From the NCBI RefSeq assembly GCF_008801695.1, contig NZ_VZPF01000004.1:1-64000 (forward strand): DNA of 64,000 nt. The letters are read 5' to 3'. Positions 29,220-59,945 of the stretch are shown here, piece after piece. The position numbers and the translations under genes are program-made. Position 1 is the first letter of the stretch. Each line of letters opens with the position of its first letter. The DNA is from Pantoea stewartii subsp. stewartii (GTDB lineage: Bacteria; Pseudomonadota; Gammaproteobacteria; Enterobacterales; Enterobacteriaceae). A model generated the notes under the pieces. It saw nothing but the letters and a program-made list of their open reading frames with translations, did not search any database and was not told the origin of the DNA.

Positions 29220-30111
29220 TGAGGGTCTCCTTAAACTGCTTTTGACATTACCTGCATTGTTTCAGGCACTGAGCCTGGTTAAACACTTTTCCCAGCGCGC
29301 ATTCTTTTATTCCCGCGCCTGACAGCCTGCGCGATTTCGTTTTACGCACTTTTCATCGGCAGGAGGATAAGTCCGTGGATGTGTAGCGCGTGGTGTTTCC
29401 GTTCTCGAAAGGAGATGACTCAAACCATGCGGGCGTCATGTTGCATAGATATGCCGTGACGCTTGCCCATCATGAAAGCTTTCAGCGGAATTCCAACTTA
29501 TCGGGAAAGCGAATCAAGGTCAAATAGCGAGCCTGACACAGTTTAATCACGTCTTTATGTCGATAACCAAATGAATTTATTATGCTTTTGTGTCTAAATT
29601 GTGTCAGTTTTTCATTAAGCGGCAGAGAGGGAAATGTGAACTCTATCACTGTGCCAGTGGCGTGAAATCGCTGAAGTATGCTGGCGACAGGGTACTAAAC
29701 AGCATCAAATGCTGCTACAGGCAGTGGAAGCGCAGGATGTATCTGTTTTTCTTATAGCAGCAAATTTGAATCAATAAGAGGCATGTGATTAGTAAAATTA
29801 ATCAGGTCGCGTTGCTTAAAACTTCGAATAATGTGAATGGCTATGCATGAAAAACAGGGCGTCGTGACAATAAAGCCTTGTCAGACGGAAAAGAAGAGGT
29901 TGGATACGCGCGTCTGTTTAGCAGACGGCCCTACAGATTCATTGAGTTAGCACAATTAGTCAAGGGTTTTAGCAATAATGGGGCAAACGTCGGCGAAGCA
30001 ACGGCGTTTTGCACCATATAAGTGCATGACGGTCGCGATCTCGCCGGATGCACTAAGACGACGGTGACCTAAATACGCTATCATGTGGCTGTTCTCACCC
30101 AGGGAGTGTTT
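29220..30111. other. Long spacer between the GltB-like gene and arcB
   Basis: This 892-base divergent spacer stands where E. coli has yhcC. I see no convincing gene on either strand. It holds a leader hairpin CAGGC/GCCTG at 29263-29277 ahead of the GltB-like gene, and a 13-base inverted repeat with one mismatch (29533-29545 and 29595-29607) flanking an AT-rich stretch, with TTGTGTC occurring twice 11 bases apart near 29588-29605. There is a small hairpin CGTCTG/CAGACG near 29910. A weak minus-strand promoter candidate is TTGACC at 29523-29518 with TAAGTT 17 bases further. Promoters for both flanking genes must lie here. The start of arcB is supported by AGGGAG at 30101-30106. Confidence 0.5.
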
Positions 30112-32448
30112 ATGAAACAGATTCGCCTGCTGGCGCAATATTATGTTGATTTAATGGTCAAGCTTGGCCTGATCCGTTTTTCGCTGCTGCTGGCGTCTGC
30201 ACTGGTCGTGCTGGCCATGATTGTGCAGATGGCGGTGACCATGGTACTGCGTGGTCATGTCGAAAGTATTGATATGGTGCGATCGGTCTTTTTCGGTCTG
30301 TTGATCACGCCCTGGGCGGTTTATTTTCTTTCCGTGGTGGTCGATCAGCTGGAAGAGTCACGCCAGCGTCTTGCCAGGCTGGTGGATAAGCTGGAAGAAA
30401 TGCGTACGCGCGATCTTGAGTTGAATCAGCAGATGAAAGAGACCATTTCCCGACTCAATCAGGAAATTGCCGATCGTAAAAAAGCGGAGCAGGCACGTGA
30501 GCAGGTCATGGCTAAGCTACGCGAAGAGGTGGCGCGGCGCGAGCAGGCGCAAATAGAGCTGGAACAACAGTCGTCTTTCCTGCGCTCTTTTCTGGATGCA
30601 TCGCCAGATCTGGTCTTTTATCGCAATATCGACAAGCAGTTCTCAGGCTGTAACCGCGCCATGGAGCTGCTGACCGGTAAAAGTGAAAAACAGCTTATCG
30701 GGCTCACGCCACATGATATTTATGACAATGACACGGCGACTAAAGTGTTGGAAACCGATGAAAAAGTCTTTCGTCATAACGTCTCGCTCACCTATGAGCA
30801 GTGGCTGCAGTATCCCGATGGGCGGAAAGCCTGTTTTGAAATTCGTAAAGTGCCCTATTACGACCGGGTCGGTAAGCGCAGCGGCCTGATGGGCTTTGGC
30901 CGCGATATAACCGAACGTAAACGCTATCAGGACGCGCTGGAGAATGCGAGCCGGGAAAAGACCACCTTTATCTCTACGATCAGCCACGAGCTTCGTACGC
31001 CGCTTAACGGCATTGTCGGTCTGAGCCGCATTTTGCTGGATACCGATCTGAATCAGGAGCAGCTCAAGTACCTGAAAACCATCCATGTCTCTGCCATCAC
31101 CCTGGGCAATATCTTTAACGACGTCATCGAAGTGGACAAAATCGAGCGACGCAAGGTACAGCTGGACAACCAGCCGCTGGATTTCACCAGTTTCCTGGCC
31201 GATCTGGAGAATCTCTCTGGCTTGCTGGCGCAGCCAAAAGGCCTGAAGTTTGTCATGGCCCCGCAGTTACCGCTGCCTCATAAAATCTCAACGGATGGTA
31301 CACGACTACGGCAGATCCTGTGGAACCTGATCGGCAATGCCGTGAAGTTTACTCAGCAGGGTGAAATCATCGTGCGTATCGCCTATGAACAGGATGAAAC
31401 GCTGCGCTTTGAGGTACAGGATTCCGGGCAGGGCATTCGCGAGGAAGAGCAGGACAAAATTTTTGCCATGTATTATCAGGTTACCGATCAGCATGGCGGC
31501 AAACCGGCAACCGGAACCGGTATCGGCCTGGCGGTCTCCCGCCGTCTGGCGCAGGCGATGGGCGGGGATATCAGCGTCAGTAGTGCACCGGGCCAGGGCT
31601 CCTGTTTTACCGTGGTGATTAAAGCGCCGCGTATTGCCGAGGAAGTAGAAGATGAAGGCGTTGACGATACGCTGCCGCTTCCGGCCCTGCACGTGCTGTT
31701 GGTGGAAGACATTGAGCTGAACGTCATTGTGGCACGCTCGGTTCTGGAAAAACTGGGATGCAGCGTTGACGTTGCCATGACGGGGCAAGCAGCGCTTGAG
31801 ATGTTTGACCCGCTGGAGTTCGATTTGGTGATGCTGGATATTCAGTTACCGGACATGACCGGCATGGACGTGTCGCGTGCCATTCGTCAACGGTATCCTG
31901 ATGCGCATTTGCCGCCGCTGGTTGCCTTAACCGCCAACGTATTGAAAGACAAAAAAGAGTATTTTGACGCGGGCATGGACGATGTGCTCAGTAAACCGCT
32001 TGCCGTACCTGCGTTAACGGCCATCATCAAAAAGTTTTGGGATGACCAACCCGGAAACGATGATCAGGCCGTTATGACGCCGGGCAGTCGTCAGTCCGAT
32101 ACCTTGCTGGACATTCCAATGCTTGAACAGTATCTGGAACTGGTGGGACCCGGTCTGATTACGCAAAGCCTGACCATCTTCGAACAGATGATGCCGGGCT
32201 ACCTCGATGTACTGGACTCCAACCTGATGGCACGCGACGAAAAAGGCATTGCTGAAGAGGGCCATAAAATCAAAGGTGCCGCAGGGTCCGTTGGCTTACA
32301 GCATCTGCAACAGATCGCGAAACAAATTCAAAGCCCAGAATTACCGGCCTGGTGGGATAACGTGGGCGAATGGGTGGAAGAGCTGAAGCGTGAATGGCGG
32401 CACGATGTGCAGATATTGCGCGAGTGGGTGGCTGAGAAACAGCGGTGA
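30112..32448 (+). CDS. arcB: Aerobic respiration control sensor kinase ArcB
   Basis: ArcB is the tripartite inner-membrane histidine kinase that senses quinone redox state and phosphorylates ArcA under low oxygen. The 778-residue protein has two membrane segments (about 24-46 and 57-77), a coiled coil (about 80-150), a PAS domain (about 155-265), the transmitter with His292 in STISHELRTP, an ATPase domain with GTGIGLAVS, a receiver with Asp576 in MLDIQLPD, and an HPt domain with His718 in HKIKGAAGS. All phosphorelay residues are present. The ATG at 30112 has AGGGAG upstream and gives the known N terminus MKQIRLLAQYY. The small RNA ArcZ is encoded just after it on the other strand. Confidence 0.97.
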   Translation: MKQIRLLAQYYVDLMVKLGLIRFSLLLASALVVLAMIVQMAVTMVLRGHVESIDMVRSVFFGLLITPWAVYFLSVVVDQLEESRQRLARLVDKLEEMRTRDLELNQQMKETISRLNQEIADRKKAEQAREQVMAKLREEVARREQAQIELEQQSSFLRSFLDASPDLVFYRNIDKQFSGCNRAMELLTGKSEKQLIGLTPHDIYDNDTATKVLETDEKVFRHNVSLTYEQWLQYPDGRKACFEIRKVPYYDRVGKRSGLMGFGRDITERKRYQDALENASREKTTFISTISHELRTPLNGIVGLSRILLDTDLNQEQLKYLKTIHVSAITLGNIFNDVIEVDKIERRKVQLDNQPLDFTSFLADLENLSGLLAQPKGLKFVMAPQLPLPHKISTDGTRLRQILWNLIGNAVKFTQQGEIIVRIAYEQDETLRFEVQDSGQGIREEEQDKIFAMYYQVTDQHGGKPATGTGIGLAVSRRLAQAMGGDISVSSAPGQGSCFTVVIKAPRIAEEVEDEGVDDTLPLPALHVLLVEDIELNVIVARSVLEKLGCSVDVAMTGQAALEMFDPLEFDLVMLDIQLPDMTGMDVSRAIRQRYPDAHLPPLVALTANVLKDKKEYFDAGMDDVLSKPLAVPALTAIIKKFWDDQPGNDDQAVMTPGSRQSDTLLDIPMLEQYLELVGPGLITQSLTIFEQMMPGYLDVLDSNLMARDEKGIAEEGHKIKGAAGSVGLQHLQQIAKQIQSPELPAWWDNVGEWVEELKREWRHDVQILREWVAEKQR

Positions 32449-32451
32449 TCC

Positions 32452-32571
32452 AAAAAAAATGACCCCAGCCGAGGCCGGGGTGCGCTAATACTGCGCCAAC
32501 ACCAGGGAAAAAGTCGCTGCTGCTATGCTTAGTGTTTTTCAAGGCAACAACGGGTATTGGTTAACACATGC
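32452..32571 (-). ncRNA. arcZ: Small regulatory RNA ArcZ
   Basis: On the minus strand the 3' part reads CCCTGGTGTTGGCGCAGTAT followed by GCGCACCCCGG, which matches the conserved core of E. coli ArcZ. It ends in a rho-independent terminator (stem ACCCCGGC / GCTGGGGT with CTCG loop, 32481-32462) and a run of eight T. The predicted start near 32571 gives about 120 bases, against 121 in E. coli. It is located, as in E. coli, beside the 3' end of arcB on the opposite strand. ArcZ is an Hfq-dependent RNA that activates rpoS translation and represses flhDC and others, and it is repressed by ArcA-P. The 5' half is less conserved than the 3' half. Confidence 0.92.
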
Positions 32572-32576
32572 AACAC

Positions 32577-32605
32577 CTTATCAAATTCGAATTAGCTTGT
32601 GACAA
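32577..32605 (-). promoter_or_regulatory. Promoter of ArcZ
   Basis: On the minus strand TTGTCA (32605-32600) and GATAAG (32582-32577) are spaced exactly 17 bases and place the transcription start about 6 bases on, near 32571, matching the expected length of ArcZ. Confidence 0.75.
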
Positions 32606-33322
32606 GATTCATTAAAATTTGTGATGTTGAACAGCGTTTAAATACAGGAAACATTAATTTGCCAACATAGTCAAGAAAGGAATCAATTTTACCGTTACAT
32701 TGGTTGTTTTTTTGAACAAAAGTTCTGTTTTTTGTACGGGTTTAACCCAAATTTGTTAACAAAGCCTGTGTTAAGCCTCTTAACACAAATGATTCGTCAC
32801 TGATGCGAACTGAATTGACTATAAACTTATGATAATAAAGAATAATGAAAGGATCGGGTCAGGAAGGTCCAAAACGTTTCGGAAAACGTCATCCGCCCTT
32901 GCGCTTAAAAGGTTTTATCAATAGAAAAGTTTGTAATGTTTGGGGAAACATATTAATAAAAAAACATGCATTGCGGTTAAGAAATGACATAAGTACGTTA
33001 ATGCCTGCAGCATTGCTGCAACCTGTATTCAGGCGCGCCCGAAATAAAATATAAGTTTTATGGAACATTGATGGCTGCAATTATCACGAATTAGTCTCAT
33101 CGCCCTGCAAGGAATGGTGTGAGACTTCGTAAATGGAACCGATTCCTTTTTAAGGGAACTTATTGAACTCATTCATACTATTGTTGCATCGCAGATGCAT
33201 TTTCTTTGCCATATCATAAAGGTGACAGGCCCGGACGGCGAATTTTTCAGGAACGCTTTTTATCATCAGGGGTGATTACACCTGAAATTAATTAAAAAAC
33301 GACATAATGATGAGACGATTGT
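32606..33322. other. AT-rich spacer between arcZ and mtgA
   Basis: In E. coli this interval holds elbB; no trace of elbB is seen. It carries a cluster of palindromes: TTTGTTAACAAA at 32752-32763 and TGTGTTAAG-CCT-CTTAACACA at 32767-32787, with GTTAAC-like words repeated. A further GTCTCA/TGAGAC hairpin is at 33094-33125 and a TGCATC-GCA-GATGCA hairpin followed by TTTTCTTT is at 33185-33207, a possible short terminator. Just before mtgA a CAGG/CCTG imperfect hairpin lies near 33268-33285. The composition differs clearly from flanking genes. One short open frame is listed separately. Confidence 0.5.
32845..33054 (+). CDS. Uncharacterised small open frame (69 aa), doubtful gene
   Basis: The frame would encode a strongly basic peptide beginning MKGSGQEGPKRFGKRHPP, with no membrane segment or motif I recognise. 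No good ribosome site precedes the ATG, and a promoter-like TTGACT is present about 30 bases upstream without a well-spaced -10. It lies in an AT-rich spacer. It could be a decayed or horizontally acquired gene, or chance. I would not rely on it without expression or conservation data. Confidence 0.2.
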   Translation: MKGSGQEGPKRFGKRHPPLRLKGFINRKVCNVWGNILIKKHALRLRNDISTLMPAALLQPVFRRARNKI

Positions 33323-34042
33323 ATGAGTAAGCATAAAGGGAAGCTTTGGCAGGGTGTAAAGCGCATTGTGCTGCGCATTCTGCTGATTTGGGCAGGGCTG
33401 TGGCTGGCAGGTATTTTACTTTTTTCCTTTCTCCCGGTGCCTTTCTCTGCCGTGATGGCTGAACGCCAGATCGGTGCCTGGCTGCGTGGCGATTTCAGCT
33501 ATGTCTCACATTCGGATTGGGTGGGGACACAGGCGATGTCGCCCTGGATAAGGCTGGCCGTTATCGCGTCGGAAGACCAAAACTTTCCTCACCACTGGGG
33601 CTTTGATGTGGCAGCCATTCAGTCTGTACTGGACAGCGATGATAACCGGATGCGCGGTGCGTCAACGCTGTCACAGCAAACGGCTAAAAATCTGTTTTTG
33701 TGGGATGGACGTAGCTGGATGCGTAAAGGACTGGAAGCGGGTCTGACGGTCGGCCTGGAAACCGTTTGGACTAAACGCCGTATCTTAACGGTTTACCTGA
33801 ATATCGCGGAGTTTGGTAAAGGGACCTTTGGTGTTGAGGCTGCGTCCCGGCGTTTTTTCAACAAGCCTGCCAGTCGCTTAAGCATGTCAGAAGCGGCGTT
33901 ACTGGCGGCCGTTTTACCTAACCCGCTGCGCTTTCGTGCCGACGCGCCGTCAGGCTATGTGCGCCAGCGCCAGCAATGGATACTCCGACAGATGCGCCAA
34001 CTGGGAGGAGAGGGCTTCCTGCAGCGCAATCATCTGGACTGA
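33323..34042 (+). CDS. mtgA: Monofunctional peptidoglycan glycosyltransferase MtgA
   Basis: MtgA polymerises lipid II into glycan strands at the inner membrane, mainly at the division site. The 239-residue protein has one N-terminal membrane segment (about residues 15-37) and a GT51 domain with the catalytic [12 protein letters not shown] motif and [16 protein letters not shown]. No transpeptidase domain follows, as expected for the monofunctional class. Its stop is only 2 bases from the npr stop on the other strand, so the two are tightly convergent. Confidence 0.96.
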
Positions 34043-52735: not shown

Positions 52736-52980
52736 AATCTCGCGGCAACTGACAGGTGAAGGCGACAATACTACGTCCCTGGACGGTGCAAAGTAAACGA
52801 TGACCCGCAGGGAACTCTGGGGTAAAATACGTATCAAATTGCAAAACCTTTTCTGGCCTGGAACATTTCCGGGTCAGTCTTCTTTTATTTGCAAAATGAG
52901 GCATGGCGCCGCAGAACGCTTTTTTCTGCAGTCACCGGTCAGGATGCACCGTGAAACAGGATTGATGACGAGGAGCTAAA

Positions 52981-59734: not shown

Positions 59735-59864
59735 CTTTCCCTTAGAGTTCTTTTTCAAATATACTGTATGCATCGACGGGCGCATTAGCAGCGAATTTTG
59801 AAAAAAATTCTTTTGGATGGGCGTCCGGGCCGCAATGCGGCATACAGGGTCCAGTGATAAAAAG

Positions 59865-59886
59865 CCCCGACTATTCGGGGTTTTTT
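59865..59886 (+). terminator. Intrinsic terminator between metY and rimP
   Basis: A 6-bp stem CCCCGA / TCGGGG with a CTAT loop and a run of six T, about 60 bases upstream of rimP. It separates the tRNA from the translation genes or reduces read-through to them. Confidence 0.82.
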
Positions 59887-59945
59887 GTTATTAGCGAATC
59901 GTAATACTGGGCTATAGGCCCTTTTTTTATGTCTTGGGGGTGGGC

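Follow-up and report, generated by a model that had tools for sequence, protein, structure and literature searches.

A candidate built-in lock in the precursor of the small RNA ArcZ of Pantoea and related Erwiniaceae

What does selection hold on to in the half of a small RNA that processing removes? The question is raised by an ArcZ locus of Pantoea stewartii subsp. stewartii, which lies in a 64,000-nucleotide stretch of DNA (contig NZ_VZPF01000004.1, positions 1 to 64,000; hereafter the window). RNase E processing of ArcZ to a 3' RNA of 56-60 nt has been published for other genera, as recounted in a 2024 review that aligns the P. ananatis ArcZ and describes its 3' part as conserved (PMC11331407). 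The initial annotation of the locus likewise noted a conserved 3' seed and a diverged 5' half, and took the variable half to suggest that selection acts on the processed 3' form alone.

Identity and surroundings of arcZ

As the initial annotation had proposed, the RNA at about 32453-32567 is ArcZ, an Hfq-dependent small RNA, here from a Pantoea species. The covariance-model search (cmscan against Rfam) gave a full-model match to ArcZ, RF00081, on the minus strand at 32567..32468 with 67.5 bits (E 1.1e-12), the gathering score being 66, and this was the sole match at E <= 0.001 in its own 4.9-Mb genome. The gene lies in the arcB-mtgA gap, downstream of arcB on the opposite strand. The seed elements GTGTTGGCGCAGTAT and GCGCACCCCGG and the terminator were all present as claimed, the conserved seed reading CCCUGGUGUUGGCGCA. 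The RNA from 32567 to 32453 folded at -43.7 kcal/mol (z -3.82), which was equalled by 0 of 200 shuffles. A permissive Rfam search of 32400-33400 returned, besides ArcZ, just a below-threshold ctRNA match that overlaps ArcZ. A match to ArcZ was found in 36 of the 36 genus genomes searched; none was found in a further member of the genus (G369), whose genome is 1.4 Mb.

32453..32567, minus strand: ArcZ small RNA, precursor of about 115 nt (Rfam RF00081; only match in the genome; fold energy)
30112..32448, plus strand: arcB, the convergent neighbour (open reading frame table; E. coli order arcB, elbB, mtgA, with arcZ after arcB)
33323..34042, plus strand: mtgA, the next gene past the position of the lost elbB (open reading frame table)
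32452..32481, minus strand: Rho-independent terminator and U tract, an Hfq site by analogy (terminator search; helix 4 of alignment A1, below)

The likely start of arcB is the ATG at 30112; the listed reading frame opens with GTG at 30085. MtgA is 90% identical to that of Pantoea allii and 87% to that of P. ananatis, the nearest named organisms. The terminator stem spans 32481-32462 and is followed by a T run at 32459-32452. Two other RNAs of the window, the greA leader (52765-52885) and the rimP leader (59828-59928), scored well over their Rfam cut-offs.

ArcZ of E. coli and Salmonella (also RyhA or SraH; RF00081) is alike in its position beside arcB, 3' seed, terminator, length of about 120 nt and extended -10-like promoter. 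The P. ananatis locus is near-identical, and that of strain LMG 2665 (L032) has the same anatomy. The P. ananatis RNA was found by small RNA sequencing as the Hfq-dependent pPAR063 and checked by qRT-PCR (PMC6749038). Its deletion slightly lowers carotenoid production, and ArcZ was placed upstream of RpoS (PMC7883899). The identity of the RNA in the window is therefore ordinary; what would be new is the proposed precursor architecture only, ArcZ in Pantoea as such being already known. In the available text of PMC6749038 and PMC7883899 we found no description of the structure of the P. ananatis precursor. In the related genus Erwinia, ArcZ of E. amylovora is reported as a regulator of virulence, motility and EPS (PMC4070566), and the available text of that paper and of PMC6538786 gave no treatment of precursor folding or masking.

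The initial annotation had expected automatic protein-based annotation to miss ArcZ. At the gathering score Rfam finds this copy with 1.5 bits to spare. In a related genus (g144, probably Erwinia) 36 of 37 genomes have a match though only 3 of 37 reach the gathering score, so that in practice the Rfam cut-off leaves most ArcZ copies of that genus below threshold and threshold-based annotation misses them. A record titled Enterobacter ludwigii EnVs2 (L033) has an ArcZ stretch identical to that of a Pantoea-genus genome (L020) and is probably misnamed.

32575..32583, minus strand: extended -10 element TGATAAGGT of the arcZ promoter (conserved as TG.TAAGGT)
32598..32605, minus strand: -35 region TTGTCACA (sequence; side-by-side reading with E. 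coli and relatives)
32591..32680, strand not assigned: non-coding block conserved upstream of arcZ, once the divergent upstream region of elbB and arcZ (genus conservation profile)

Judged by the Rfam model and by the homologous promoter of E. coli, the start of ArcZ probably lies at 32567-32569, for a precursor of about 115-117 nt; the initial annotation had given 120 bases. A TTGTCA-17-GATAAG promoter had been suggested as well. That string is present and in the right place, but its register is off by two bases: of 34 distinct upstream sequences from Pantoea, 33 had TG.TAAGGT and 1 had GATAAG, and we rejected the string as the conserved promoter register. These counts point to GTCACA, 17 bases and TGATAAGGT as the homologous promoter, and the -10 element of arcZ is better read as TGNTAAGGT than as GATAAG. 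GTCACA (32603-32598) aligns with E. coli GTAACA at a 17-base spacer to TGATAAGGT; as -35 candidates, GTCACA and TTGTCA were found in 15 of the 34 each. Judged by conservation, ArcZ has its own promoter on its strand, which a generic sigma-70 scan did not list at the scan threshold. The P. ananatis ArcZ was published as 181 nt from small RNA sequencing (PMC6749038). In the available text of that paper 5'-RACE is reported for other RNAs (FnrS, GlmZ and three novel ones) and ArcZ is not among them, which makes the long 5' end uncertain. By our arithmetic, a 181-nt ArcZ would begin at about 32633, inside the conserved block upstream of arcZ.

The gene elbB, present in E. coli, is gone here, as the initial annotation had stated: a search with E. 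coli ElbB was negative in the arcB-mtgA gap and in the whole of its own genome. ElbB was absent from 59 of 61 genus genomes, and the same query matched homologues in the other two (E 5e-65 and 9e-65), so the search can detect them. Those two homologues (G006 contig 3 and G029 contig 2) are about 50% identical to the E. coli protein and lie on a contig other than that of arcZ. Among the loci compared, E. coli ElbB had no match in 53 of 54 from Pantoea, Erwinia and Winslowiella, the exception being a Winslowiella locus (L047), and none in 10 of 10 from Rahnella; it matched in 77 of 77 others. Measured from the ArcZ core, mtgA lies at a distance of 813 in the window (32510-33322), 833 in E. coli, and 811-871 in 20 of 23 named loci lacking elbB (583, 742 and 746 in the others). 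It is odd that elbB should be undetectable in a gap still near the E. coli length, a loss without shrinkage.

The two 30-base bins of the block at 32680-32621 were 0.93 and 0.97 conserved, level with the 3' half of ArcZ (0.96) and above its 5' arm (0.79). In Winslowiella iniecta (L047) the same block lies directly before the start codon of an intact elbB. The upstream side of elbB has thus outlived the gene, perhaps because it serves arcZ. At 32676-32710 of the window, an RBS-like AAAGGAATCAATTT is followed by apparent remnants of the first elbB codons, the start codon being gone; the remnants are clearer by eye in two other loci (L025 and L039). The arcZ-mtgA gap has two conserved islands, 32861-32890 and 33131-33160 (0.80 and 0.87), one with the palindrome-like GGAATCGGTTCC and one with CCGAAACGTTTTGG, which we take to resemble LacI-family operators.

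Hairpin and anti-seed motif of the 5' arm

32553..32560, minus strand: anti-seed motif CCAATACC, complement of the seed at 32496-32503 (motif counts; minimum-energy and consensus folds)
32544..32552, minus strand: 5' strand of the covarying hairpin, CGTTGTTGC (pair changes in A1)
32515..32523, minus strand: 3' strand of the covarying hairpin, GCAGCAGCG (pair counts in A1; RNAalifold consensus)
32508..32514, minus strand: probable RNase E site ACTTTTT, predicted to be single-stranded (position from the RN/WUU rule)
32496..32503, minus strand: seed GGTGTTGG, within the conserved CCCTGGTGTTGGCGCAGTAT (no variation among the 47 aligned sequences)

The structure of the arm was examined in an alignment, A1, of 47 distinct ArcZ sequences, 34 from the genus of the window, 12 from Erwinia or outlying named Pantoea, and one from Winslowiella iniecta. 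From the alignment alone, RNAalifold returned two hairpins, an inner one and a GCGC one, together with the terminator and an outer helix (CAAUACC:GGUGUUG). The structure used for counting was drawn from single-sequence folds and differs by one pair more (the outermost of the hairpin) and one pair less (the innermost of the terminator). The inner hairpin changed on both sides in 7 of its 9 pairs and was paired in 93.4% of cells, its outermost pair failing in 20 of the 47 sequences. The terminator helix was 99.7% paired, with 2 pairs changing on both sides. Over the whole structure, 101 cells were changed on both sides as compared with a shuffled mean of 34.9, and covariation was 0.264 against 0.125 in shuffles and at most 0.057 in slid versions of the structure; 0 of 500 shuffles reached either value. 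Cells were paired at 97.7% against 90.7% (again 0 of 500). Nine pairs changed on both sides, a number that 13 of 500 shuffles reached, and further pair types numbered 26, reached by 18 of 500. Relatedness can inflate the shuffle control, and on cells paired a structure derived from the A1 sequences tends to beat its slid versions; the both-side changes are the firmer evidence.

These changes bear directly on the reading that selection acts on the processed 3' form only while the 5' half drifts. The primary sequence of the arm is indeed less conserved than the 3' half in the 30-base bins of the genus profile, in line with the review's description of conservation in the 3' part (PMC11331407). 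The compensatory changes in the hairpin and the covariation above shuffles argue instead that the 5' half is under structural selection, and together with the near-invariant CCAATACC they contradict the early conclusion and lead us to reject a freely drifting arm, which we regard as very improbable. Conservation plots drawn from sequence only can thus misjudge the 5' half of a processed small RNA.

The 5' flank of the hairpin bears CCAAUACC, which is complementary to the seed GGUGUUGG. In the window, CCAATACC (32560-32553) pairs antiparallel with the seed GGTGTTGG (32503-32496), one U-G pair included. By pattern search, 54 of 61 genus genomes contain the unaltered motif at a distance of 36-64 bases before TTCCCTGGTGTTGGCGC; in two more (G368 and G370) the motif is present and the CCCTGG part of TTCCCTGGTGTTGGCGC differs by one base, for a total of 56 of 61. 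Three genomes (G007, G026 and G374) carry CCGATACC and one (G013) carries TCAATATC, and all eight pairs are still possible in each. In the wider family the pattern was found in 18 of 295 genomes, from 10 of 154 genera, an ArcZ match of any kind being present in 186 of the 295. The label Erwiniaceae used here is the taxonomy that we take to apply to the named members, and the family grouping behind these counts is wider.

Among 121 Erwiniaceae-type loci, 119 keep all eight pairs, 113 with the exact motif and 6 as fully paired G-U wobble variants (CCGATACC, TCAATATC); some genomes are counted twice (L163/L208, L164/L211 and others), and 18 of the loci (L145-L162) were fetched by the motif itself, the exact count without them being 95 of 103. 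The remaining two (L051 and L165), apparently one species, have one broken pair. A 28-bit second match in G368 (L212) was left out because it has no seed. To weigh the motif against chance, we counted distinct arms of 62 bases, a length that misses motifs further upstream. An 8-base seed complement with at most one G-U pair was found in 81 of 92 Erwiniaceae-type arms, as compared with 1.6% of shuffled arms; with any number of G-U pairs the count was 85 of 92, against 23%. In contrast, the arms of other Enterobacterales lack the CCAAUACC motif, with 0 of 72 at no more than one G-U pair (shuffled 1.3%) and 7 of 72 with any (shuffled 19%).

The predicted folds agree with these counts. Seven of the eight anti-seed pairs were found in the minimum-energy folds of 46 of the 47 A1 sequences, L051 having none of them. 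The folds of all 18 of L145-L162, a set with widely divergent hairpin sequences, contain seven of the pairs as well. The anti-seed helix also appeared in the RNAalifold consensus fold of the 47 sequences. The window thus has, in this order, CCAAUACC, the covarying hairpin, a probable U-rich cut site and the seed, the arrangement that we propose for Erwiniaceae-type pre-ArcZ, and its own predicted fold adds seven lock pairs, GUGUUAA with UUAGCGC. The mean probability that the seed is paired to the arm was 0.93 in Pantoea as compared with 0.75 for shuffled arms, and shuffles reached the observed pairing in 10% of cases on average (15% in the Erwinia group). Shuffled arms also pair with the seed because it is rich in G and U, which makes this probability test weak. 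E. coli-type arms gave 0.49, below their own shuffles (0.71), so masking of this part of the seed is not a general rule. With an invariant seed side, the pairs of the anti-seed helix cannot covary. The case for an anti-seed rests on a conserved complementary motif within a variable arm and not on energy.

The cleavage site and a possible lock

By the RN/WUU rule for RNase E (PMC11331407 and PMC5222698), the cut would be expected between 32513 and 32512, and the site is common to ArcZ of E. coli and Salmonella by homology. In the predicted fold the precursor is probably locked, with the seed within a helix and the RNase E site single-stranded. The hairpin of the 5' arm would bring the preceding CCAAUACC into pairing with the seed GGUGUUGG, leaving the RNase E site single-stranded between the hairpin and the seed helix. 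RNase E, with Hfq, would cut this single strand and the 5' arm would depart; a 3' RNA of about 60 nt would then be free to pair with mRNAs such as rpoS. The model suggests that removal of the arm acts as the unlocking step. We give a probability of roughly 60% to the reading that the ArcZ precursor is self-locked, a hairpin-positioned anti-seed masking the seed until RNase E cleaves. The wider proposal is that Erwiniaceae ArcZ precursors have a built-in lock, a conserved 8-nt anti-seed held by a covarying hairpin with RNase E cleavage as the key, and that the P. ananatis/P. allii clade of the window extends it by the seven predicted pairs; to this we would give about even odds.

The hairpin is the directly covarying part of the arm and lies immediately upstream of the presumed cut site. 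The arm might accordingly be kept only as a guide for RNase E, with the hairpin beside the U-rich site serving to position the cut and CCAAUACC pairing with the seed only incidentally, and the frequent covering of the seed by shuffled arms fits this as well. Such a guide leaves unexplained why an 8-base stretch outside the hairpin is near-invariant across 10 genera when the sequences of hairpin and loop do change, and why motif variants mostly preserve the pairing, and we consider it unlikely, if the strongest of the alternatives. Another reading accepts the conservation of CCAATACC but ascribes it to something other than masking, be it a DNA element where transcription starts, a contact with Hfq or a second region for pairing with targets. 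The motif does lie about 8-15 bases past the inferred start, beside a highly conserved promoter region, and the invariant seed side precludes covariation at these pairs. The complementarity to the seed, which a shuffled arm attains with 1.6% chance, would then be a coincidence. Pairing is also kept by three of the four kinds of base change in the motif, too few for a test, and in E. coli 330 of 335 interactions are reported to go through the 3' seed (PMC11331407). A role for the motif apart from masking thus appears improbable.

Self-locking of the precursor would accord with what has been published on ArcZ elsewhere. In Salmonella, uncleavable pre-ArcZ is reported to be inactive and to bind tpx poorly, whereas mature ArcZ has a KD of about 15 nM (PMC5222698). 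In Dickeya solani, a naturally occurring change of one base in the 3' region of ArcZ prevents processing, with a predicted effect on how the precursor folds (PMC10168573). RprA and MicL are likewise Hfq RNAs whose precursors are cut by RNase E to a 3' form (PMC5222698, PMC11331407); they are RNAs different from ArcZ, and the likeness is one of published description. Among the titles and abstract openings of the listed papers on ArcZ, none described an anti-seed element. Our own inference is that, in Erwiniaceae, the seed is masked by the anti-seed helix.

Targets and the meaning of cleavage

The initial annotation had taken the conserved seed to imply that rpoS and flhDC are retained as targets; rpoS is supported and flhDC is not. 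The rpoS site, at -91 to -63 according to the review (PMC11331407), is identical to E. coli in 27 of 29 bases in the own genome of the window, and the P. ananatis genetics points the same way. The duplex at the published site was -17.0 kcal/mol in Pantoea, with 39 of 500 shuffles as good, and -17.4 in E. coli, with 86 of 500, so the support comes from site identity and not from energy. A blind duplex scan of the rpoS leader cannot see the known site, as E. coli itself is no better than shuffled leaders (185 of 200 at least as good; 153 of 200 in Pantoea). For flhD, no pairing above background was seen in this genome, where 113 of 200 shuffles equalled or bettered the best duplex, while the same scan recovered E. 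coli flhD (3 of 200); the review calls the flhD site less conserved (PMC11331407). The conserved seed therefore supports rpoS and not flhDC, for which pairing was found in E. coli only.

Why ArcZ has to be cleaved has so far been answered in the literature by a hypothesis, the review naming masking by the 5' region as the most likely reason (PMC11331407). A locked precursor would explain why cleavage activates ArcZ, as shown in Salmonella, and a short anti-seed found clade-wide makes the masking hypothesis testable by eight base changes.
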